Shown here piece by piece: positions 4,290 through 18,843 of a DNA stretch of 46,535 bases. Below the pieces are notes generated by a model. The model ran no database searches. It was not told where the DNA came from and worked only from the letters and a program-made list of their open reading frames with translations. The stretch is taken from positions 1 through 46,535 of the forward strand of contig VBLC01000062.1 in the NCBI GenBank assembly GCA_005879315.1, read 5' to 3'. This DNA comes from Deltaproteobacteria bacterium (GTDB lineage: Bacteria; Myxococcota; Myxococcia; Myxococcales; 40CM-4-68-19). The translations under genes and the position numbers were made by a program. Position 1 is the first letter of the stretch, and every line of letters starts with the position of its first letter.

Positions 4290-4874
4290 TCAGCGCGACT
4301 GTAACCGCAGGCGCGAGACGATGCGAATTCCCAGGAGGAGGGCGACCACTCCCGACCAGAGAAGCGGCTCGAAGAGCGCGGTCTTGAAGCGCCAGAGGAA
4401 GTGAACGCACGCCAGCACGCCTGCGAGATAGACGAGGCGGTGCAGCCCCTTCCAGCGGCGATATCCGAGGCGCCTCTGCCAGCCCTGCGTCGAGGTGACG
4501 GCGAGCGGCAAGAGCAGAACCCAGGTCGTCACGCCGAGGGTGATGAAGGGGCGCTTGACGATGTCGCGTCCGATCTCGCCGAAGGCGAGACCTTGATCGA
4601 GCCCCGCGTAGGTCAACAGATGGAGGCAGGCGTAGAAGAAGCAGAAGTCGCCGAGCAGCTTGCGGATGCGGATGGGCCAGTTGACCTTGAAGAGGATCTG
4701 CGCCGGCGTACAGGCGAGAGTGAGCACGAGCAGAACGAAGGCATCGAGGCCGAGCCGGTTGAGCACCTCGGCGATGGGATTTGCGCCGAGATCGTCGCGC
4801 AAGAAGCGCACGACGAGCCAGGCGAGGGGCAACAGGCAAGCGGCGAAAGCGGCGGGGACGAGCCAGCGCTTCAA
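4290..4874 (-). CDS. msrQ: MsrQ, haem-binding membrane subunit of the MsrPQ methionine sulfoxide reductase
   Basis: MsrQ (YedZ family) is an inner-membrane cytochrome b that passes electrons to periplasmic MsrP for repair of oxidised methionine. The 194-residue product has five to six hydrophobic helices of the ferric-reductase-like transmembrane fold. Conserved His residues that could ligand haem occur in '[10 protein letters not shown]', '[10 protein letters not shown]' and 'ACVHFLW'. Length matches the family. Its ATG overlaps the stop of msrP by 4 bp (4871-4874), the usual msrPQ gene order, so both are made from one transcript. Confidence 0.93.
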
Positions 4875-5788
4875 AAGAACTTCCTCAGGTCCATCCCGGC
4901 GTAGAGGGGCGCCACTTCCTCGTATCCGTTGAACATGAGGGTCTTGCGCTTGAGGAACTCGCCGATGCGCCGCTCACGCGCCTGGCTCCAGCGCGGGTGG
5001 TCCACCTCGGGATTGACGTTGGCATAGAAGCCGTACTCGCTGCCGCCGGCGTACTGGCTCCAGGTGGTGGGCGGCTGCGTCTCCTGCAAGTGGATGCGCA
5101 CCAGGGACTTCCCGCTCTTGAATCCGTACTTCCACGGCACGACCAGGCGGATGGGCGCGCCGTCCTGGTTGGGCAGCTGCTCGCCGTAGATGCCCACCGC
5201 GAGGAGGGCGAGCGGGTGCGTCGCTTCGTCGATGCGCAATCCTTCGAGATAGGGAAAGGGAATTCCGGCGAAACCGCGCACGCCGGGCATCTGCGGCTGC
5301 ACGGCGCTGGTGAAAGCGACATAGCGGGCGCGGCTCGTCGGCTCGTGCCTGGCGAGGAAGTCGGCGAGAGGAAATCCATTCCAGGGAATGACCATCGACC
5401 AGGCCTCGACGCAGCGGAGGCGATAGACGCGCTCCTCGAGGGGAAAGGAGTGGAGGATTTCCTCGATCTTCCAGGTGCGCGGCTTCTTCACTTCGCCGTC
5501 GACCACCACCTGCCAGGGACGCGTCTGGAGCTTGTCGGCGTTGGCGGAGGGATCGGACTTGTCCGTGCCGAGCTCGTAGAAGTTGTTGTAGCTGGCGATG
5601 TCGTCGAAGGGGGTCTTCTTCTCGTCGGTGCTGTACTTCGGATTCGGCTTCACGCCGGGGAGCTGGGGGCCGTGAGGAATCGCGGCCCGGGCGCGCGCGG
5701 CGGCGGAAGTGAGCAGCGTCACCCCCGCGCCCAACTTGAGGAGCTCGCGGCGGCGGAGGAAGAGCGCCTTCGGCGTGATCCGGTCCAT
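4871..5788 (-). CDS. msrP: MsrP, periplasmic molybdopterin methionine sulfoxide reductase catalytic subunit
   Basis: MsrP (YedY) reduces protein-bound methionine sulfoxide in the periplasm using a molybdopterin cofactor and electrons from MsrQ. The 305-residue product begins with a Tat-type signal ([10 protein letters not shown] followed by a hydrophobic stretch), as expected for export of a folded cofactor enzyme. The sulfite-oxidase-like core contains '[14 protein letters not shown]', in which Cys126 is the expected molybdenum ligand, and '[11 protein letters not shown]', typical of the family. The gene is first in the pair and overlaps msrQ by 4 bp. The Tat motif has Glu-Leu instead of the common Phe-Leu after the twin arginines, a tolerated variation. 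Confidence 0.95.
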
Positions 5789-6542: not shown

Positions 6543-9158
6543 TCACTTCCCGAAGAGTCCCTTGAGGCGATTCTTCGCCTCCTCCTCCATCTTCTTCTTC
6601 TGCGCATCGGCGTCGGCCGCCGCTTTCTCTTCAGCTTGTTGCGCGCGCTGCTGGCCCTGCTTCTGCGCCTCCTGCTGCTTTTGCTCGATGTTGTCCACTC
6701 CCAGCGCCCTGCCGACGAGCGCGCTCCCGGCCTGCCTGACGATGGACTCGACCGCAGGCTTGAGATCGAGATCGGTCAGCGACGGGTTCCAGGCGGGACC
6801 GGTGATCCGCACCTTGATCGGCACCGGGTCCTTGGGCGTCACCTTCCCTTGGGTGATGCTCGCGATCGTCTGTGGCGAGAGAGAGACGATTCCAGGAAGA
6901 TCGAGGTTGCCGTCGACGTGGATCCCCCCGGTGAAGGTCATCTCCGCCTCGGGGCGGGTGATCTTGATCGGCTGCTTCAACTTTGCCACGCCGCTCTCGA
7001 TGGTCACGCCGAAGGGCAGATCCTTGCCCAGGCCAGTGCTGCCGCCCTGCCCTGTCTTTCCTGCCAACCCGAAGGGCAGCGACTTCGCCAAGGGGCCGCT
7101 CACCGAGGCGACGATGTCCTTGCCGAAGAAAGTCCCCTCGAGCAAATGCCCGTCGAGATTTCCCGCCAAGGTCTGCGCGAGCTCCTTCATCCCCTGTCCG
7201 CCGCCTTTGAGATCGATTGCGCCGTTGAACTTGCCGCCGAGGATCTTCTTCTCGCTGCTCATCGCTAGCAGGTTCGCGGTCTCGATTCCTGTGAGCTTCG
7301 TCACCACCCGGAAGGGTTGTTCAGGATGAGCCAACCTGAGCTCGGTGCCGCCGGCGGAGACGTTGCCGCCGAAAGCCTTGAGCTCGGCTTTGTTCACCTT
7401 GATGTCGTCCTCGCTCATTGTCACGTCCGCGACGATGTCGGTCAGATCCTGTTTCCGCATCCGTAGCCGATCGATCTTCACGGCCGCGTGTCCTGACACT
7501 CCGGCGAACGTCTTCGGGTCGAGAGGCTTCTTCTTCTCGGTGGTCTTGTCGGGGAGGAGCATCTTGTCCAGATCGAGATGCGAGCTGGCCAGGGACAGCT
7601 CGAAATTGGTCGTCTTCTTTGCGCCGGCACCCTTCGTCTCCACCCAGCCGCGGCCCTCGAGCTCGTCGTCGAGGACGTGGGCCTTCACCTCCGCCAGCTC
7701 GATCTTCTGCTCGGGGTTGGAGCTCGATCGATTCGTCGTCCGCGCTCCCTCGAGCGACAGATCGAGCCGCTGCCCCGGCGGCTTGTCGATCGACTGGCCC
7801 GGGCGGAGATCGACGCCGAGCAGATCGATCCTCGCATCGAAGCGAAGCGGTCCGCCGCTCGCGGCGACGCCTTTGGCATGGGCGACGAGGGTCATCGTCT
7901 GGCCCGCCGCCTTCGCCAGCGTCTGGGGAATGGCAAGCTTCACCTTGGTGAAATCGATCTTGAGCTCCAGCGCCTGCGCCGCCTCCGTTCCGCTCGCGTG
8001 CAGGTCGAGGCTGATCGGTCCGGCGATCTGCCCCTTGAGCTGCTCGCGCAGAGGCGGGTAGTAGGCGGCCAGCTTCGCGAGATCGAGGTCGCGCCCGACG
8101 ACCTGCAGGCCCTCGATCTTCGGTGAAGGAGTGACGAGCCCGCGCGCGCGGCCCTTGCCGGTGATGCTCGCAGGGCCGATGGCGAGCGCGAGCTTGTCGA
8201 TCTCGACGTCGCCCTGAGCCGCGTCGCCCTTGAGGTCCGCGTCGAGAGTGACGTCGAGCGCCTTGCCGCCCTCGGCGCCTTTGAAGCGCAGGCCGGCCAG
8301 CTTGACGGTCCCCTTCACGGTCGTCGGTCCTTTGCCGCCGGGCACGGCGGCGCCCAGCTCGGCACCGAAGTCGGCGTCGAGCGTTCCCTCGCGCAGTCCG
8401 GACTTGCCCGCGAAAGGCCCGAGCGGGCCGAGGTCGATGGGCGGCTGCACCTTGAGCAACAGCGACGTCGGGGTGGGCATCAACGTCGGCGGAAGCGGGC
8501 CCGCCTTCACGTGCAGCTCGAGATTCTGCTTCTCCGCCAGCACCGCGGCTTTCACCAGCACCTCGAGCGGCTTGCCCGCGCGCAGATCGTTCACCGTCAC
8601 GTCGAGGTGCTGGATGGCCAGTTCCTTCGACGCGCCCCTGCTCTTGTCGAGGAAGGCGATCTTCGCATCGCGCAGCGCCGCGTGATCGATCCGCAGGAAG
8701 GAGAGGTCGCTCGGCTTCTGCGGCTCCTCCTTCTTCGGCGGCGCGCTCTGCCCCATCCTCTTCTCCAGCGCCTCGAGATTGGTGGTGCCGTCGGGGAGAC
8801 GGACGAGGTTGACGGTGAGGCCGTCGATCTCCGCCGACCGGATGTCGATGTCCTTGCCCTTGCTCAGCGCGGCGCGAAGGAGCGACAGCTTCACGTCGAG
8901 CCGCTCGAGCTCGACCAAGGGAAGGTCTTCGCCTTGCGCCGGGCCGATCTGCACGTCGCTCACGCGCACACCCAGCCCGGTGATGAGCTTCGTCGCGACG
9001 CTGCCGACCGTGACCGGCCGGCCCCATTCCTGCGAAAGCTTGGCGGCCTGCGCGTGCGCCTGCGAAGTGATGATCGCGTCGAGGACGAAGAGCAGGATTC
9101 CGACGATCACCACCAGCGCGAGCGCAGCGATGGCGACTACTTTCTGCCAGCGTTTCAT
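6543..9158 (-). CDS. AsmA-family inner-membrane-anchored envelope protein
   Basis: This 871-residue protein has one N-terminal membrane anchor (about residues 7-29) and a long periplasmic region of repeated beta-rich segments, as in the AsmA/YhdP/TamB superfamily. The start of the AsmA domain is visible ('GRPVTVGSVATKLITGLGV' then 'VSDVQIG', with 'LERLDVKLSLL'). Family members are thought to bridge the periplasm and help move phospholipids to the outer membrane. The last 70 residues are rich in Gln, Lys and Glu and probably form a coiled coil, an unusual tail for the family. It lies 33 bp downstream of the RlmN-like gene, same strand. Function is assigned at family level only. Confidence 0.85.
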   Translation of the reverse strand: MKRWQKVVAIAALALVVIVGILLFVLDAIITSQAHAQAAKLSQEWGRPVTVGSVATKLITGLGVRVSDVQIGPAQGEDLPLVELERLDVKLSLLRAALSKGKDIDIRSAEIDGLTVNLVRLPDGTTNLEALEKRMGQSAPPKKEEPQKPSDLSFLRIDHAALRDAKIAFLDKSRGASKELAIQHLDVTVNDLRAGKPLEVLVKAAVLAEKQNLELHVKAGPLPPTLMPTPTSLLLKVQPPIDLGPLGPFAGKSGLREGTLDADFGAELGAAVPGGKGPTTVKGTVKLAGLRFKGAEGGKALDVTLDADLKGDAAQGDVEIDKLALAIGPASITGKGRARGLVTPSPKIEGLQVVGRDLDLAKLAAYYPPLREQLKGQIAGPISLDLHASGTEAAQALELKIDFTKVKLAIPQTLAKAAGQTMTLVAHAKGVAASGGPLRFDARIDLLGVDLRPGQSIDKPPGQRLDLSLEGARTTNRSSSNPEQKIELAEVKAHVLDDELEGRGWVETKGAGAKKTTNFELSLASSHLDLDKMLLPDKTTEKKKPLDPKTFAGVSGHAAVKIDRLRMRKQDLTDIVADVTMSEDDIKVNKAELKAFGGNVSAGGTELRLAHPEQPFRVVTKLTGIETANLLAMSSEKKILGGKFNGAIDLKGGGQGMKELAQTLAGNLDGHLLEGTFFGKDIVASVSGPLAKSLPFGLAGKTGQGGSTGLGKDLPFGVTIESGVAKLKQPIKITRPEAEMTFTGGIHVDGNLDLPGIVSLSPQTIASITQGKVTPKDPVPIKVRITGPAWNPSLTDLDLKPAVESIVRQAGSALVGRALGVDNIEQKQQEAQKQGQQRAQQAEEKAAADADAQKKKMEEEAKNRLKGLFGK

Positions 9159-9191: not shown

Positions 9192-10268
9192 TCAGCTGCA
9201 GCCGGGGGCGATGCGCACCAGCGCACTCCTGCTCGCCGTGCGGGCGGCGAGCTGACCGCAGGCGCCGCCGATCTCCTGTCCATGAGGAAGGCGGAGGAGC
9301 GCGCGCACGCCGTGGTCGGCGAGCCGCTTCTGGAAGGCGCGGCATTTCTGCAGCGGAGGCGCGCGCCGATCCTTGGCCGGGCCGGGGTTGAGGGGGATCA
9401 AGTTCACCCGCACTTGCAGGCCGCGAGCGAAGTGGACCAACGCGTCTGCGTCGCGCTCCGAGTCGTTGACGTTCTCGATCAGGGTCCACTGCAAGAGCAC
9501 TGGCCGCGGCGCGCGCTCGATGGCCCTGCGCAGCATCTCGAGCGGCCACTTCTTCGCCACCGGCAGGAGCGCCCGGCGCGCCTGCTCGTCGATGGCGTGC
9601 AGCGAGACGGCGATCTGCGCCTTGGTGCGCGCGTAGAGCTCGTCCATCTTCGGGACGATCCCGACCGTGCTGACGGTGATGCGCCGCTCGGGGACGGCAA
9701 ATCCAGCAGGCTCGCGCAGCACCTCGATGGCTTTCACCACCTGTTCGAGATTGTCGAGCGGCTCGCCCATGCCCATGAAGACGACGTTGCGCAGCCGCTG
9801 GCCGAGGTGGCGCGCGGCGATGGCGTACTGGGCGACGATCTCGTGCGCCTGCAGATTTCGCAGAAGGCCCATCCTGCCGGTCTCGCAGAAGACGCAGCCG
9901 CGAGCGCAGCCGACCTGTGAGGAGAGGCAGACGGTCCACCGCTCTTTCGCGCGCGCCTCGTTCTCGCGCTGGTGGATGAGGACCGTCTCGACCATCTTGC
10001 CGTCGTCCAGCTGGACGGCGAAGCGCACGGTGCCATCCGCATCGGCGACGGCGTCCGCTCGCGGCAGCTCGACGGAGAATTCAGCCCGCGCGAGCGCGAG
10101 CAGCGACTGCGCCGGCCGCTCGCCCGCGCCCCGCTGCGCGAATTCTGCCAGCAACGCGCGAGCAAGCGCCCGCGCACCGCCGGATGTAGCGCCGCGAACG
10201 CGAGCCCACTGCTCGAGCGCAGCCTCCGTCTGTCCGGCGAGGTGTTTCACATCCGGTTTGTAACTCAT
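9192..10268 (-). CDS. RlmN/Cfr-family radical SAM RNA methyltransferase (divergent)
   Basis: This 358-residue protein is a member of the RlmN/Cfr family, which methylates adenosine C2 or C8 in 23S rRNA (RlmN also acts on some tRNAs). The radical SAM cluster motif is in GCARGCVFCETG (CX3CX2C), followed by 'RNLQAHEIV', 'FMGMGEPLDN', 'ITVSTVGIVPKM', 'VSLHA' and the family's C-terminal 'ACGQL' containing the second catalytic Cys. The N-terminal part is shorter and less similar to housekeeping RlmN, and 'CETGRMGLLRNL' differs from the usual 'CATG..G..RNL', so it may be a paralogue with another RNA target. ATG at 10268 overlaps the stop of the upstream oxygenase-like gene (10265-10268), so the two are co-translated. 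Confidence 0.82.
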   Translation of the reverse strand: MSYKPDVKHLAGQTEAALEQWARVRGATSGGARALARALLAEFAQRGAGERPAQSLLALARAEFSVELPRADAVADADGTVRFAVQLDDGKMVETVLIHQRENEARAKERWTVCLSSQVGCARGCVFCETGRMGLLRNLQAHEIVAQYAIAARHLGQRLRNVVFMGMGEPLDNLEQVVKAIEVLREPAGFAVPERRITVSTVGIVPKMDELYARTKAQIAVSLHAIDEQARRALLPVAKKWPLEMLRRAIERAPRPVLLQWTLIENVNDSERDADALVHFARGLQVRVNLIPLNPGPAKDRRAPPLQKCRAFQKRLADHGVRALLRLPHGQEIGGACGQLAARTASRSALVRIAPGCS

Positions 10269-10846
10269 TTGAGGGCGCGATAGCGCCCGCTCTCGCTCCA
10301 CGTCGGCACGTCGGTCGGACGGCGGTTCCAGTAATTGATCACCAGCGTGATGCGCATCCTGCCGCGCGGACCAGGCAGCGGGCGACGCGGCGTGCGGCCG
10401 CGGGCGTCGAGGACGCCGTGGAAGAGATCGCCGCCGAAGATCGCGTACCGGTTGCGGCGGGGCTTGACGGTCTCGAGGAGGGTCGCCTCTGCAGAGCCGC
10501 GCCGCTGATCGGTCACGGCAAGGTGCCCGCCTCGGACGGAGTTGAAGAAGAATACGCTCGAGAGCAGCGGATGCCTCGAGCCTTCCTTGACGTCGTGGTC
10601 GAAGTGGAACGCGATGGGCAGGTCGGTCGTGTACGCGCGGCCGATCCACCATTCGACTCCCGCGCAGCGCACTCGCGCGAGACGCCACAGCTGCAGCACC
10701 GCCTCCTCCACGGAGTGCGCGGGCTCCGCCCCGCGAGGCAGCCAGAAGGTGGTGAAATAGCTCTCGCGCAGCCGCTCCGCGCCGAGCCGCACGATGGCTC
10801 GCCCCGCCCGCCGGACCAGCGACTCGGGCAATGCGCCTTCCTTCAC
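10265..10846 (-). CDS. probable 2-oxoglutarate/Fe(II)-oxygenase-fold protein
   Basis: The C-terminal half has the pattern of a double-stranded beta-helix Fe(II) oxygenase: an HxD-type segment 'AFHFDHD', a second region 'AIFGGDLFHGVLD' that would supply the distal His, and 'RMRITLVINYW' with an Arg positioned like the 2-oxoglutarate anchor. I therefore place it tentatively near the prolyl-4-hydroxylase-like superfamily. The substrate is unknown. Start choice: the longest frame begins at TTG 10897 but would run into the divergent arginine decarboxylase; the GTG at 10846 removes that overlap and gives 193 residues. The stop overlaps the start of the RlmN-like gene by 4 bp, linking the two; a role in RNA or ribosome modification is possible but speculative. 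Confidence 0.5.
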   Translation of the reverse strand: MKEGALPESLVRRAGRAIVRLGAERLRESYFTTFWLPRGAEPAHSVEEAVLQLWRLARVRCAGVEWWIGRAYTTDLPIAFHFDHDVKEGSRHPLLSSVFFFNSVRGGHLAVTDQRRGSAEATLLETVKPRRNRYAIFGGDLFHGVLDARGRTPRRPLPGPRGRMRITLVINYWNRRPTDVPTWSESGRYRALK

Positions 10847-10896
10847 CCGTGTCAACCCTTGTGATCGGCGGCCTCTGTGTGGCAGATCGCGACGCA

Positions 10897-12846
10897 ATGT
10901 CCAATTCCGACTGGTCGATCGAGAAGTCGCTCCAGCTCTACAACATCCCGGGCTGGGGCGCGGGGTACTTCTCCATCAACCCGAAGGGGCACCTCGTCGT
11001 GCACCCCTTCGGCCAGCCCGGTCCGATGATCGATCTGATGGACGTGGTCGACGACATCCGCGAGCGGCGGCTCGGCTTTCCCTGCATCGTCCGCTTTCAG
11101 GACGTGCTCCGCAGCCGCGTCAAGCAGATCAACGACGTCTTCCGCAACGCCATCGTCCAGCATGGCTACAAAGGCCAGTACTTCGGCGTCTACCCGACCA
11201 AGGTGAACCAGATGCGCGAGGTGGTCGAGGAGATCCTCGACGCCGGCGCGCCCTATCACTTCGGCCTCGAGGCGGGCAGCAAGGGCGAGCTGCTCATCGT
11301 CCTCGCTCTCAACACCGATCCCGAAGCGCTCACCATCTGCAACGGCTACAAGGACGAGGAGTACCTGCGGCTCGCTCTCCTGGGGCGAAAGCTCGGTCGC
11401 AAGATCCTGGTGGTAATCGAGAAGCTCTCCGAGCTGCCGCACCTGTTGCGTCTCGCCGAGGAGATGAACGTCGTCCCGCTCATCGGGCTGCGCTCGAAGC
11501 TCTCCACCAAGGGGACGGGAAAGTGGGAATCCTCCTCAGGAGACTTCGCCAAGTTCGGCCTGACCACGCCGGAGTTGATCCAGGCGGTGTCGATTCTCAA
11601 GGCCAAAGGCCTCGAGCAGCAGGCCAAGCTCTTCCACTTCCACGTCGGCTCGCAGCTCACCGACATCCGCACCGTCAAGGACGTGGTCAACGAGGGCGCG
11701 CGCTTCTACGCCAAGCTGCGCAAGATGGGCCTCGGGCTCGAGTTCTTCGACGTCGGCGGTGGCCTGGGCGTCGATTACGTCGGCTCGCGCAGCACCGCTT
11801 TCGTCTCTTCGTTGAACTACACGATGGACGAGTACGCGGCCGACGTCGTCTACACCGTCCAGCAGATCTGCAGCAACGAAGGCGTGGCCGAGCCCAACAT
11901 CGTCAGCGAGTCCGGCCGCGCGCTCACCGCCCACCATTCCTGCCTGCTGATGAACGTCTTCGGCCACATCGAGTTCGGCGAGAACGGCGCGGTGCACGAG
12001 GAGGTGCCGCAGGGCGAGCCGGTCACCGCGCCCACGCCGGAGAACGAGGCGCCCATCGTGCGCGAGATGCGCGAGATCATCTCCGGCCTGACCTCCAAGA
12101 ACTCCGGCGAGGCATACAACGACGCGGTCGCCAAGAAAGAGCAGGCGCTGACGATGTTCAAGCTGGGCATCCTCGGCCTGGAGGAGCGCGCGGCCGTCGA
12201 GGGACTCTTCTGGCGGCTCTGCCGGCGGCTGGTGGAGATCAACAAGAAGCGCAAGCGCGTGCCGGGCGCGACGCGGGATCTGGGCGACAAGCTGGCCGAT
12301 CAGTACATGGCCAACTTCTCTCTCTTCCAGAGCGCGCCCGATCACTGGGCCATCAATCAGCTCTTTCCCATCGTGCCGCTGCATCGGCACACCGAAACGC
12401 CCAGCCGCGATTCCACCATCGTCGACATCACCTGCGACTCGGACGGCAAGATCGACAGCTTCATCGAGGGGGAGACGGTGGACGAGACCATCGCGCTCCA
12501 CCCGCTGCGGCCCGCCGAGGCGTACTACCTGGGGATGTTCCTGACGGGCGCCTATCAGGACATCATGGGCGACATGCACAATCTCTTCGGGCGGGTGCAC
12601 GAGGTGCACGTCTTCGTCGATGACGACGACCCGGAGGACTACTACATCGAAGAAGTGATTCCCGGCGACACGATGGAGCGCGTGCTCGCGCGGGTGCAAT
12701 ACGAGCCCAGCGACCTGGCCAAGCGCATCAAGCAGGCGCTCGATGGAAAAGTCCGCGAGGGACAGGTGAAGCCGAAAGAGAGCGTGCAGCTCACCGACTT
12801 CTACGAGCAGGCCATGCGCGGCTACACCTATCTGAACAGCGAATGA
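10897..12846 (+). CDS. speA: biosynthetic arginine decarboxylase
   Basis: SpeA converts L-arginine to agmatine, the first step of polyamine synthesis by the agmatine route. The product (649 aa, near the E. coli length) begins 'MSNSDWSIEKSLQLYNIPGW', the standard SpeA start, which is why ATG 10897 was chosen over GTG 10831. The fold-III PLP barrel contains the expected Lys in 'GVYPTKVNQ', the glycine-rich 'HVGSQLTDI' and 'FFDVGGGLGVDY', and a C-terminal catalytic Cys region. No agmatinase or agmatine deiminase gene is in the window. It is divergent from the oxygenase gene and convergent with the FHA activator gene. Confidence 0.95.
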   Translation: MSNSDWSIEKSLQLYNIPGWGAGYFSINPKGHLVVHPFGQPGPMIDLMDVVDDIRERRLGFPCIVRFQDVLRSRVKQINDVFRNAIVQHGYKGQYFGVYPTKVNQMREVVEEILDAGAPYHFGLEAGSKGELLIVLALNTDPEALTICNGYKDEEYLRLALLGRKLGRKILVVIEKLSELPHLLRLAEEMNVVPLIGLRSKLSTKGTGKWESSSGDFAKFGLTTPELIQAVSILKAKGLEQQAKLFHFHVGSQLTDIRTVKDVVNEGARFYAKLRKMGLGLEFFDVGGGLGVDYVGSRSTAFVSSLNYTMDEYAADVVYTVQQICSNEGVAEPNIVSESGRALTAHHSCLLMNVFGHIEFGENGAVHEEVPQGEPVTAPTPENEAPIVREMREIISGLTSKNSGEAYNDAVAKKEQALTMFKLGILGLEERAAVEGLFWRLCRRLVEINKKRKRVPGATRDLGDKLADQYMANFSLFQSAPDHWAINQLFPIVPLHRHTETPSRDSTIVDITCDSDGKIDSFIEGETVDETIALHPLRPAEAYYLGMFLTGAYQDIMGDMHNLFGRVHEVHVFVDDDDPEDYYIEEVIPGDTMERVLARVQYEPSDLAKRIKQALDGKVREGQVKPKESVQLTDFYEQAMRGYTYLNSE

Positions 12847-15759: not shown

Positions 15760-17091
15760 TCAACAGAACCAGCTTTCGGTCAGGCGCGGAATGCAGCGCT
15801 TGGGGGCAGGAACACGTCCCCCGCCTCCCGCCAGCGTCCGGAGGAGAGCGAAGGTCTCGCGAGCGTCACTCTCGGCGCGAGAGTGGACCAGCGCGGCTGA
15901 CTCGCGCTGCAGCGCATCGACCCGCTGGTCCTCGTGCTGCCAGTTCCAGCCAAAGCCATCGGGTTCGAAGGAGCGCAGCCAGGGGCGCGGCTCGTCCCCG
16001 TCCAGGAGTGCAGAGCCGGGCGGCAGGAGCAACCGCAGCGTGTACTGCACGGGATCGATCGCATCGACCAGATCGTGGGCCACCGCGAAGTCGAACAGGT
16101 CGGGCAGATCGCGCAGCCGGGTCCAGGGCGTGTAGGGCAGCAGAGTCGGCCTCAGCTCGATGCCGGCCTCGCGAACGGCGCGCAGCGCGAGGGGCACGTC
16201 GGCTGCCGTATGCCCCTTCCGCAGCGCGCGCAGGACTTCGTCGTTCAGCGACTCCACTGCGGAAGTGACGAAGAGCAGCCCGCAGCGGGCCAGCTCGGGC
16301 AAGAGGTCCTGGTGCTGCAGCAAGTGCTCGATCTTGACGGTCGCGTCGAAAGTCAGCTCCGGCCAGCGCGCACTCGCTTCTCGCGCAATGCGCAGCGCGT
16401 GCGTCGGACCGTTGAGAAAATCCGGGTCCGCGAAGGTGACGTGCTGTGCGCCGGCCGAGATCTGTTGGCCGATGTCCGCCAGCACCTGCTCGCGCGGCAC
16501 GGCGACGAACTTGCCCCGATAGACGGGCACGATGGGGCAATGGCGGCAGAAATGCTTGCAGCCGCGCGAGGCCTCGACGGAAGCGACCAGCCGAGTCTCG
16601 CCGCCGACCTCGAGGCGCGCGTAGCGATCGATGAGCGGAAGCCCCCCGCGCGAGGGAACCGGCTCCTGCCGCGGCCGCGCGACCGAGGTGGCGGAGCGCG
16701 GCGGCGCCTCTCCTCGCTCGAGAGTCCGCGCCAGCTCGACCAGCAGATCGACCGACTCGCCGCCGAGGACCGTGTCGCAATGCTTGGCGAGAAGGTGCTC
16801 GGCATTGAGGATGGCATAGAGGCCGAAGAGCGCCACGTGCGCCGCGGGATCGATCTCCCGGACGCGCGCCGCGACGCGCACCCCGAGTCGAAGCGCAGTG
16901 TGCATGGGGACGGAAATGGCGACGAGCCGCGCGCGGCGCAGCGGTTCCTCCGCGAGCTTTTCCACCGAGACGTCGAGCGCAGCGGGCCGGAAGCCGGCGC
17001 GTTCCAGTCCGGCCAGCGCTGCCGCCGCCGCGAGCGGCTGCCGCCCCAGCTCGTAGCAGGAGATGACGAGGATCTCACCCGGCCCGCGCAG
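15760..17091 (-). CDS. B12-binding-domain radical SAM protein
   Basis: The frame encodes a cobalamin-binding Rossmann domain first ('EILVISCYELGRQPL' then 'VAISVPMHTALRLG' and 'HVALFGLYAILNAEHLL'), then a radical SAM domain with cluster motif 'CKHFCRHC'. The family carries out methylations, ring contractions and other carbon-skeleton chemistry; the substrate is unknown. Start problem: the first ATG/GTG/TTG in frame is GTG 16965, which would remove the first B12-domain strand. A CTG at 17089-17091, with AAGGGA six bases upstream, keeps the full domain, so CTG is preferred. It lies 3 bp after the yggX stop in the same frame. The C-terminal part (from about residue 330) has no recognised domain. 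Confidence 0.8.
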   Translation of the reverse strand: MRGPGEILVISCYELGRQPLAAAAALAGLERAGFRPAALDVSVEKLAEEPLRRARLVAISVPMHTALRLGVRVAARVREIDPAAHVALFGLYAILNAEHLLAKHCDTVLGGESVDLLVELARTLERGEAPPRSATSVARPRQEPVPSRGGLPLIDRYARLEVGGETRLVASVEASRGCKHFCRHCPIVPVYRGKFVAVPREQVLADIGQQISAGAQHVTFADPDFLNGPTHALRIAREASARWPELTFDATVKIEHLLQHQDLLPELARCGLLFVTSAVESLNDEVLRALRKGHTAADVPLALRAVREAGIELRPTLLPYTPWTRLRDLPDLFDFAVAHDLVDAIDPVQYTLRLLLPPGSALLDGDEPRPWLRSFEPDGFGWNWQHEDQRVDALQRESAALVHSRAESDARETFALLRTLAGGGGRVPAPKRCIPRLTESWFC

Positions 17092-17094
17092 TCG

Positions 17095-17373
17095 CTATCC
17101 CTTTGCCGCAGGCGGCTTGTAGTCCGGCGGGAGCTGGCTGCCCTCGCCGAAGAAAAATTTCTCGCACTGATCGAAGAGGACCTGGTTGGCCTGCTCCGAG
17201 CCCCCCGCCAGCCGGTACTCGTTCATGATCATCTTGAAGTGCTCCAGCCACATCTTCCACGCCTCTTGCGAGACGTTGTCGTAGATGCGCTGGCCGAGAT
17301 CGTTGTTGAAGGGCTTGTACTCGAGCCCGGGCAGCTCTCGGCCAAGCTTCACGCACTTCACCATCCGCGCCAT
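17095..17373 (-). CDS. yggX: YggX-family Fe(2+)-trafficking protein
   Basis: This small cytoplasmic protein (92 aa) has the YggX hallmarks: a Cys near the N-terminus ('[13 protein letters not shown]'), '[20 protein letters not shown]', 'MIMNEYRL' and 'FFFGEG'. YggX protects iron-sulfur clusters from oxidative damage and may take part in iron transfer. ATG 17373 is preceded by AAGGAGG. The adjacent downstream radical SAM enzyme needs an iron-sulfur cluster, so the pairing makes sense. A TATACA-like -10 element upstream (about 17403-17408) may be the promoter. Confidence 0.9.
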
Positions 17374-17480
17374 GAAAGAAGCCTCCTTCGATCGGCCGCT
17401 TGTATAACGGCGCGGCCCGCCGCGCATAGGGGAATGCCCGGCGGGCGCTCGACTAGCAGCAGCCAAGCGGCAGGCAGCAG

Positions 17481-18248
17481 CTACTGGAGCGCGTCGATCG
17501 AGCTGACGCCGATGCTCTTCAAAAGCGCCTCCAACCGCGCTTGTAGCTTGTGCGCCGAGGCGGCATTCCCCTCTCGCGCAGCAGCCTTGGCAAGAGCATC
17601 CACCGCGACGGCCTCGTCCTCCGCTGCACATCCACGCATCGGACAGGCCGAAGCGATCGATGCCTCGAAGCGCCCGACTGCTCCCAGGTCGCCTCGCGAT
17701 CGGTAGACATCGGCCGCGAGTTGCAGCGCAGGAGCCCAGAGCATTGGATCGAGCACTACATAGCGGGCGAACTCCTCCACCTCCGCAACGTCCGCCTTCC
17801 CTGCGGCGGCCTGCTCGCGCAGCGTCGCGTATAGATGATGGAGGCGCGCGTGCTCTTCCATCTGAGCTGGCGTCAGTTGCGACAGCTTGCGCTGGAGCGC
17901 GAGGAGATCCGGTGCGTCGGTCCGCGCTGCCACAACGTCCGCCAGGGACGCGGCGGAGCGCAGCGAAGCCAGCGCCGCGCGCCTCGCCGAAGACGTGTCT
18001 GCGCGCTTCTCTGCGCGGCCGCCGTGCACCAGGTACGGCACGGCGCCGCGGAGAAGGTAGAGCATGGCAAGCAGCACGCCGGCGGCCAGAGCGGCCGCAA
18101 TGGGCCAGCGCCGCCGCATGCGCAGGGCGCCTCGGCCCGCCCGCCGCAGCGCCGCAGCCAGGACCCGCTTCGGGTCGCGCGCCAGTGCATCGAGCGCCGC
18201 ACGCTCCTCGGCCGACTCGGGCGCTTCGAGCATTTCGCGCAGCTCCAC
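17481..18248 (-). CDS. hypothetical single-pass membrane protein
   Basis: This 255-residue product has one transmembrane helix at about residues 48-70, after a basic N-terminus. A helix-rich, Ala- and Leu-rich region follows, probably with TPR-like repeats ('[19 protein letters not shown]', '[15 protein letters not shown]'). The protein ends near Ala-Leu-Gln. No family was recognised. GTG 18248 is the longest start. It is divergent from the PAP2 gene and stands alone. The GC-rich stretch 17374-17480 after it contains two small inverted repeats that could terminate transcription. Confidence 0.6.
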
Positions 18249-18297
18249 GCTGTCGAAGACGTACGGAGCGGCAAAATCCCGCCGCTCGCCATGCTAT

Positions 18298-18843
18298 TTG
18301 TTCGCCTTGCTCCCTCCTCCGCCCATCGACGTCGAGCTGCTCGCCTACTTCAACCGGCCGGGTACACCTTGGTTGGACGCCGCCATGGCAGCGATTTCCA
18401 ACCGCGGCGTGCTTCTCGCCATCGGCGCGCTCGCGGCGATCTATCTCTGGATCAAATCGCCCCACCGAGGCCTCGCCGCGCTGCTCTTCGCGGCCGCCAT
18501 CGGCGCCGCCGACCTCGTCTCGGTGCGACTGATCAAACCCGAAGCTGCACGCGTGCGACCCTGTGCGGCGGATCCGGTGCACGTCGCGCATCCGCTGGGT
18601 TGCGGCTCAGGACAATCCTTCCCTTCCACGCACGCCGCCGACACTGCCGCGGCTGCGGCGGTATGCGTGTGGGCCGCGCCTGCTTTCTCGACGATCGCGA
18701 TCCTGTTCTCGCTCGCGGTGGGGATTTCCCGCGTATACCTGGGCGTCCACTGGCCCACCGACGTGATGGCCGGGTGGGCGATCGGCGCCGCTCTGGGAGC
18801 AGCCCTGGTCTTGCTCGCCCGCTTGCGCTACCTCCCGCGCTGA
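18298..18843 (+). CDS. PAP2-family membrane phosphatase (possible undecaprenyl-diphosphatase)
   Basis: All three PAP2 catalytic motifs are visible: C1 'KPEAARVRP' (KX6RP), C2 'FPSTHA' (PSxH with His), C3 '[12 protein letters not shown]' (SRX5HX3D). The 181-residue protein has several membrane helices and resembles BacA-independent undecaprenyl-diphosphatases and lipid phosphatases, which recycle lipid carriers at the outer face of the inner membrane. Start: TTG 18298 (also TTG 18307) is chosen because the conserved '[10 protein letters not shown]' segment begins soon after; the longer frame runs into the divergent gene. GlsB-like gene follows 38 bp later. Confidence 0.85.

Follow-up and report, generated by a model that had tools for sequence, protein, structure and literature searches.

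RlmN is usually described as a single dual-specificity housekeeping enzyme. In plants, the RlmN-like proteins RLMNL1–3 split rRNA and tRNA sites among paralogues (PMC10838301), providing a precedent for several such enzymes sharing out rRNA and tRNA targets; these proteins lie outside the trees presented here. Catalytic roles have been described for C118, C355, and E105 of the Escherichia coli enzyme (PMC9692996, PMC10838301), and passages of a preprint on the complex of Cfr with rRNA (PMC13001441) indicate that Cfr contacts the U-turn through K250 and Y252 and the target adenine through backbone atoms of F330 and A336. The 46,535-nucleotide contig VBLC01000062.1 from a Deltaproteobacteria bacterium of the Myxococcota (assembly GCA_005879315.1; 4.43 Mb in 125 contigs, completeness 97.55%), referred to here as the window, carries a divergent RlmN-family radical S-adenosylmethionine (SAM) gene, designated RlmNx, that overlaps the gene of a predicted 2-oxoglutarate (2OG)-Fe(II) oxygenase. 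RlmNx is a known kind of enzyme from a so far unnamed clade, and its aligned sequences indicate an intact catalytic set together with altered substrate-reading residues, in which it resembles neither RlmN nor Cfr. The features of the gene are as follows.

9192..10268, minus strand: RlmNx, an RlmN-family radical SAM methylase of 358 amino acids with an ATG start (from NCBIfam, the tree, and Foldseek)
9885..9908, minus strand: CxxxCxxC cluster motif of RlmNx (C121, C125, C128), with C114 (E. coli C118) before it
9882..9884, minus strand: E129, immediately 3' of the third cluster cysteine (from the alignment)
9483..9506, minus strand: R-P-V-L-L-Q-W-T, residues 255–262, aligned with Cfr K250/Y252
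9258..9293, minus strand: C-terminal catalytic loop R326-x-P-H-G-x3-G-G-A-C337, in which C337 corresponds to the methyl-carrying C355

The divergent RlmN-family gene proposed in a first-pass annotation of the window is real, with a match to the RlmN model TIGR00048 at E = 5.4e-78 and RlmN-type 6fz6 as the top Foldseek match of the predicted structure. A chance open frame is ruled out, since 12 other genomes have intact homologues and two further genomes have fragments. The protein nonetheless stays under every RlmN and Cfr cut-off that was applied: 262.4 bits against 290 for TIGR00048, 208.8 against 422 for PRK14464 (NF011034), 188.7 against 441 for PRK14470 (NF011040), and 156–164 against 468–550 for three Cfr models. 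All 13 members of the RlmNx clade match the same eight NCBIfam models. The expected catalytic cysteines are all present, as C114, C121, C125, C128, and C337 align with C118, C125, C129, C132, and C355 of E. coli RlmN, and E94 aligns with the catalytic E105; the six residues are retained in 13 of 13 members.

The predicted model (predicted local distance difference test, pLDDT, 88.9) has the RlmN fold, including the N-terminal region and the C-terminal helix. The best Foldseek match, from Sphaerobacter, has template modelling (TM) scores of 0.82/0.86; chains of E. coli RlmN score 0.77–0.83 when normalised to the query (3rfa 0.82; 5hr7 is a further RlmN reference), and Cfr scores 0.66/0.77. The N-terminal part had been described as short. 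It is indeed slightly shorter: 93 residues come before E94, where E. coli RlmN has 104 and the 84 comparison rows have a median of 97. The region is not truncated, as the three helices and the beta strands usual for it are present in the model.

The altered motif neighbours noted at first are a property of the whole clade (13/13). E129, L258, Q260, W261, P328, H329, G334, and G335 are invariant among the members, and position 256 is T, P, or S. Relative to E. coli RlmN, this amounts to the replacement in every member of R274 by T, P, or S, T276 by L, E278 by Q, Y279 by W, R347 by H, and A353 by G, such that H329 stands in place of R/K347. Among 150 non-RlmNx rows of the same alignment, E129 occurs in two, L258 in seven, G334 in 12, G335 in 20, and W261 in 22, while Q260 and H329 occur in none (the alignment is without PRK14464). 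The Q260 position is occupied by E in 135 of these rows, as in E. coli (E278), and by A in all three Cfr-clade rows. Four of the replaced positions, R274, T276, R347, and A353, align with the Cfr residues K250, Y252, F330, and A336 that contact the U-turn or the adenine; passages of the same preprint give no role for the positions of E278 and Y279. In the alignment, Cfr K250, Y252, F330, R327, W101, S103, and N288 agree in letter and number with the published complex (PMC13001441). It is the intact catalytic residues combined with altered reader positions which suggest that RlmNx would keep catalysis and change the reader.

Phylogenetic placement was based on a main tree of 70 rows (IQ-TREE, LG+C20) holding 13 of 13 RlmNx rows, all 10 of group III, nine of 17 of group II, nine of 25 of group I, and three of 10 of group IV, along with the three Cfr-clade rows and 23 of the 84 comparison rows; the group names I–IV were coined in this analysis. 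A 66-row tree was made from the same set by removing 11 rows and adding seven of nine PRK14464 rows. Rows left out of the trees were L056 and L236 (a broken copy in G002), L093 and L094 (pieces), L235 (distinct, and by eye similar to group III), and, for a stop within the extracted frame, L060, L063, L106, L134, L152, L183, and L241; L141 is in the FastTree analysis only. In the main tree, RlmNx is a 100/100 clade of 13, its sister is group III (10 rows, 98/91), and group II (nine rows, 98/90) follows, with the housekeeping RlmN of the phylum and Cfr placed elsewhere. Row L176, from a record classed as Myxococcota, nests among these housekeeping copies, which points to Myxococcota as the probable phylum. 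The branching order was repeated in the 66-row tree (100/100, 97/93, 93/93) and in a FastTree of 163 rows (100, 86, 98). The PRK14464 rows form a separate 100/100 clade apart from RlmNx in the 66-row tree. An approximately unbiased (AU) test disfavoured a clade of RlmNx with the housekeeping RlmN of the phylum (p = 0.031), and, given also its sub-cut-off TIGR00048 score and separate clade, an identity as ordinary RlmN is not supported. The check proposed at the outset, against RlmN, Cfr, and orphan clades, identifies RlmNx as a divergent orphan clade that does not group within ordinary RlmN.

Compared with RlmN proper, RlmNx has the same predicted fold, N-terminal region, C-terminal helix, catalytic cysteines, and E105 equivalent, and differs in its clade, its score, and the replacement of R274/T276/E278/Y279/R347. 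Groups II and III are the nearest clades in all three trees; group III shares with RlmNx an R123 inside the cluster motif (10/10) and P328 (8/10), and E129, Q260, W261, H329, and the GG pair set RlmNx apart from both. Group II is of the PRK14470 type (two rows score 575 and 698 bits, and a third, from the window's family, scores 388, under the 441 cut-off), and no curated model was passed by two group III rows that score 277–279 bits against TIGR00048, below its cut-off. PRK14464, which is likewise an orphan RlmN-like family (annotated 'RNA methyltransferase', NF011034), was over its cut-off in nine of 150 genomes from the phylum of L179, a Sideroxyarcus, L179 included.

Several further features of the neighbouring groups can be recorded. 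Group II rows (L098, L114, L121, and others), which come from families f1–f7 and f9 of the order, carry RYSGG in the C-terminal loop (17/17) and mostly D in place of N307 (14/17). One group III RlmN gene, that of G151, shares a 4-bp overlap with a gene read from its sequence as exonuclease-like (L259, 3451–6449).

A profile built from the 13 members recovered RlmNx in 13 of 195 genomes of the phylum at 553–626 bits, with the next best match at 286 bits. Carriers are found in the window's family (f1) and in f5 (G015), f7 (G017 and G023), and f8 (G018), all of one order, and frame-broken or contig-end fragments occur in G002 and G006, which also belong to the window's family. The G002 copy (L023/L056) is split over two frames in a 61%-complete assembly, which may be an assembly error or a pseudogene. 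In searches without a positive control, no RlmNx was detected in 299 genomes of the phylum of the Gammaproteobacterium L168 (E <= 1e-95), in 395 genomes of the phylum of the Geomonas L197 (E <= 1e-90), or in 50 scattered genomes (best match 291 bits). Among the matches listed in a broad contig scan there were only RlmN genes of at most 45% identity, a result with no bearing on the range of the clade. The literature searched, at the level of titles and abstract openings and with few subscription papers, gave no description of the RlmNx clade or of its pairing with an oxygenase.

RlmNx is not the only RlmN-type gene of its genome. The window's genome has a separate housekeeping RlmN (G000:C58; 392.7 bits against the cut-off of 290), and the terminal parts of contigs C32 and C38 carry further RlmN-type fragments that probably represent one third paralogue. 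Nine RlmNx genomes have placed extra copies (G000, G001, G005, G009, G010, G015, G017, G018, and G023); each of them has a group I RlmN, and a group II copy was extracted from six. More broadly, a match to P0001 was found in 59 of 60 relatives, and 54 of the 60 gave two to four RlmN-type matches, some of which are pieces of one gene. Among the matches listed, no genome in the 70-row tree gives both RlmNx and group III, as if the two filled one slot.

The second gene of the pair and the genes around it are listed below.

10265..10897 (longest frame), minus strand: 2OG-Fe(II) oxygenase resembling prolyl hydroxylase domain (PHD) and prolyl 4-hydroxylase (P4H) enzymes, likely start 10855 or 10846
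10606-10604, 10600-10598, and 10420-10418, minus strand: predicted iron ligands H84, D86, and H146 of the oxygenase, numbered from 10855
10354-10352, minus strand: predicted 2OG-binding R168 of the oxygenase, numbered from 10855
10265..10268, minus strand: ATGA, the 4-bp overlap of the oxygenase stop and the RlmNx start
10831..12846, plus strand: arginine decarboxylase (SpeA), divergent neighbour
6543..9158, minus strand: AsmA/DUF748 protein, downstream neighbour within the syntenic block

The fusion of the two genes by a 4-bp overlap is as first described, with the ATGA common to both. The start of the oxygenase is uncertain: TTG at 10897 gives the longest frame, and from the alignment TTG at 10855 or GTG at 10846 suits most relatives better. 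The prediction of an Fe(II) oxygenase holds. The protein scores just below the gathering cut-off of Pfam 2OG-FeII_Oxy_3 (26.0–26.2 bits, cut-off 27), yet an HxD motif (H84, D86), H146, and R168 do not vary across the 21 aligned sequences, the window's included. From knowledge of the family, H84, D86, and H146 are presumed to be the iron ligands and R168 the 2OG binder. In the structural comparison (model pLDDT 93.3), the nearest among the matches listed was PHD2 (VIA Z 15.1, root-mean-square deviation (rmsd) 3.0, 154 aligned), with the P4H of Pseudomonas putida at Z 14.4 (rmsd 2.7, 153 aligned) and the P4H chain of the EF-Tu complex 4iw3 at Z 14.1; the Foldseek and VIA listings are taken up largely by PHD2 entries, and other families may lie beyond them. 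The sequence had no match among PDB chains, a profile search of the same chains gave chance-level matches only (enoyl-CoA hydratase best at E = 0.47, PiuC hydroxylase at 0.6), and NCBIfam gave three member matches, all weak and to unrelated names (best E = 0.016). Because the sequence searches gave only the sub-threshold Pfam match, the PHD label is drawn from the fold and the ligands. The model thus indicates a PHD/P4H-type 2OG-Fe(II) enzyme that shares with PHD2 and the Pseudomonas prolyl hydroxylase PPHD the fold and the HxD...H...R site at ~14–20% identity, a likeness that does not give the substrate. The oxygenase is present in 100 of 193 genomes of the phylum, mostly in family f4; a search of the window's own genome with PF13640 returned nothing, though the window's oxygenase scores 26 bits as a protein, and is thus uninformative on further copies.

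Whether the pairing is conserved depends on the taxonomic range considered. Within the window's family, RlmNx and the oxygenase are adjacent on the same strand in all 11 genomes that show both, out of 12 examined; neither gene is seen in the remaining one, G004, an assembly of 74% completeness. The gaps between them in G000–G003 and G005–G011 are, in order, -4, 8, 8, 65, 18, 10, 274, -4, 44, 12, and -4 bp, measured from the start codon nearest the alignment, and the two genes are probably co-transcribed in this family. The arginine decarboxylase gene flanks the pair in all 11, with AsmA and further genes on the opposite side in most of those examined. Three genomes (G008, G009, and G011) keep SpeA-oxygenase-RlmNx despite a different outer or downstream flank, which slightly favours a real operon. 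Outside the family, no conserved pairing was found among 60 relatives: RlmNx occurs without an oxygenase match in three (G017, G018, and G023), both genes occur unlinked in one (G015), and the oxygenase occurs without RlmNx in 18. The conserved pairing that the first-pass annotation asked about thus stands within the window's family, and beyond it, among the 60 relatives, the genes occur apart.

The neighbours of RlmNx outside the family differ from genome to genome (L078, L079, L080, and L081). RlmNx of G015 once more has an arginine decarboxylase gene nearby, at a distance of 2.7 kb. In G151 the distance between a group III RlmN gene and the oxygenase gene is 1.2 kb; the two are convergent and separated by a third gene, a single case that is likely due to chance.

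With moderate confidence, RlmNx is interpreted as an RlmN-type adenine-C2 methylase that is specific to its lineage and altered in its RNA target, and it is probably a translation-tuning paralogue of its lineage and not an antibiotic-resistance gene of the Cfr kind. In the proposed ping-pong radical route, SAM would methylate C337, a 5'-deoxyadenosyl radical would abstract a hydrogen, the methylene radical would add to C2 of adenine, and C114 would effect release. The enzyme would act on an RNA or RNA subset other than that of the housekeeping enzyme, and the joint change of the residues that contact the U-turn and the adenine makes a different U-turn adenine the most likely target, for instance A37 in certain tRNAs. 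Several observations weigh against this interpretation. The separation of RlmNx from the housekeeping RlmN of the phylum by the AU test is only moderately supported, a clade of RlmNx with PRK14464 is not rejected (AU p = 0.096), and long branches lead to group II and RlmNx in the 70-row tree (0.8 and 0.89). All seven PRK14464 rows (L258, L267–L269, and L272–L274) also read Q-W-T at E278-Y279-V280, so that Q260 is not unique to RlmNx and the motif either predates the clade or arose convergently, while group III, nearest to RlmNx, keeps E278 and R347. The changed residues may, on the aligned sequences, reflect drift or lost activity. In addition, exchange of small active-site regions in Cfr/RlmN chimeras is reported to mostly kill activity (PMC4689488), which implies that single residues do not reveal function. 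For the pairing, the position of the two genes within a syntenic block makes their adjacency weak evidence of a functional tie.

A less likely explanation is that RlmNx duplicates RlmN or shares its work, modifying one or both of the RlmN sites A2503 and A37, for example with one paralogue of the genome restricted to rRNA and another to tRNA. This would suit the accompanying group I RlmN in all nine genomes with placed copies, the group II copy in six, and the division of rRNA and tRNA sites among the plant RLMNL1–3 reported in PMC10838301, but a redundant copy would not need the joint change of U-turn-facing residues seen in 13 of 13 members. The other identity offered in the first-pass annotation, that of a resistance-like Cfr relative, does not survive. 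It is highly improbable that RlmNx methylates C8 of A2503 for self-protection or resistance in the manner of Cfr, even though Cfr and RlmNx share a superfamily and the same catalytic residues, a Cfr-clade gene (L115; 367 bits to TIGR04432) is present in G014 of the same order, and in a published phylogeny the sister lineage of cfr consists of methyltransferases from various Deltaproteobacteria and Actinomycetia (PMC11047308). A clade of RlmNx with Cfr was rejected (AU p = 0.00086), and the Cfr-model scores fall far from their thresholds (164 bits against 530 in one case). Cfr K250, Y252, F330, and W101 are absent, with R110 at the place of W101, as is the extension of the alpha5/beta6 loop (9–10 residues in RlmNx, 13–14 in the three Cfr-clade rows), and the C-terminal helix of the model is an RlmN-type and not a Cfr-type feature. 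The Deltaproteobacterial sister of cfr would fit L115, not RlmNx.

The suggestion that the two genes define a new modification unit can be kept as a possibility within one family, and the conserved pairing does not itself demonstrate it; as for a pair of RNA- or ribosome-modifying enzymes, the oxygenase resembles a translation-factor hydroxylase in its fold. The PHD-type oxygenase would probably hydroxylate a protein, perhaps a translation factor. It is doubtful that the pair is an oxygen- or iron-sensitive unit of translation modification, in which the oxygenase would hydroxylate a ribosomal protein or an elongation factor and RlmNx would methylate RNA of the decoding machinery. The 11 of 11 same-strand adjacencies, the order kept where flanks differ, the fold nearest to PHD2 and to the P. 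putida P4H, with the Pseudomonas enzyme PPHD reported to hydroxylate EF-Tu (PMC4682802, PMC5701443), and the proximity in G151 would all suit such a unit. Set against these are the relatives in which either gene occurs alone or the two are unlinked, the convergent arrangement with an intervening gene in G151, the silence of fold likeness on substrate, and the unchanged global translation rate reported for Pseudomonas EF-Tu hydroxylase mutants (PMC4682802). Slightly more doubtful still is the specific form in which a family-specific operon would join a new adenine-C2 methylase specificity, directed at a U-turn other than A2503 or at a private tRNA set, to PHD-type prolyl hydroxylation of a translation factor, so that the decoding machinery would change in response to oxygen, iron, or 2OG. 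Under the favoured interpretation of RlmNx as a methylase with an altered target, the clade allows a test of whether bacterial paralogues, as in plants, share out or widen the range of 2-methyladenosine targets, and the PHD-type neighbour offers a concrete, putative link to oxygen-dependent translation control. Genes of the RlmNx type are neither RlmN nor Cfr and should be annotated as neither.

Several minor observations were made on the Cfr-clade gene and elsewhere in the window. L115 (G014:C30:127000-128300), from a 9-Mb genome of the same order, groups at 100/100 with cfr and cfr(D), is below the TIGR04432 cut-off of 550, and may be a member of the Deltaproteobacterial lineage that is sister to cfr in the phylogeny of PMC11047308. 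A second radical SAM protein, of unassigned type, is encoded at 15760-16965 on the minus strand, ~5 kb from the RlmNx/oxygenase pair. At 17095-18591 on the minus strand, a 498-amino acid frame has a Bacterial Fe(2+) trafficking domain only at its C-terminal end and is possibly a fusion or an over-long frame. Adjoining Ferric_reduct and Oxidored_molyb proteins (Pfam) are encoded at 4290-5788 on the minus strand and are probably an MsrPQ methionine sulfoxide reductase pair.

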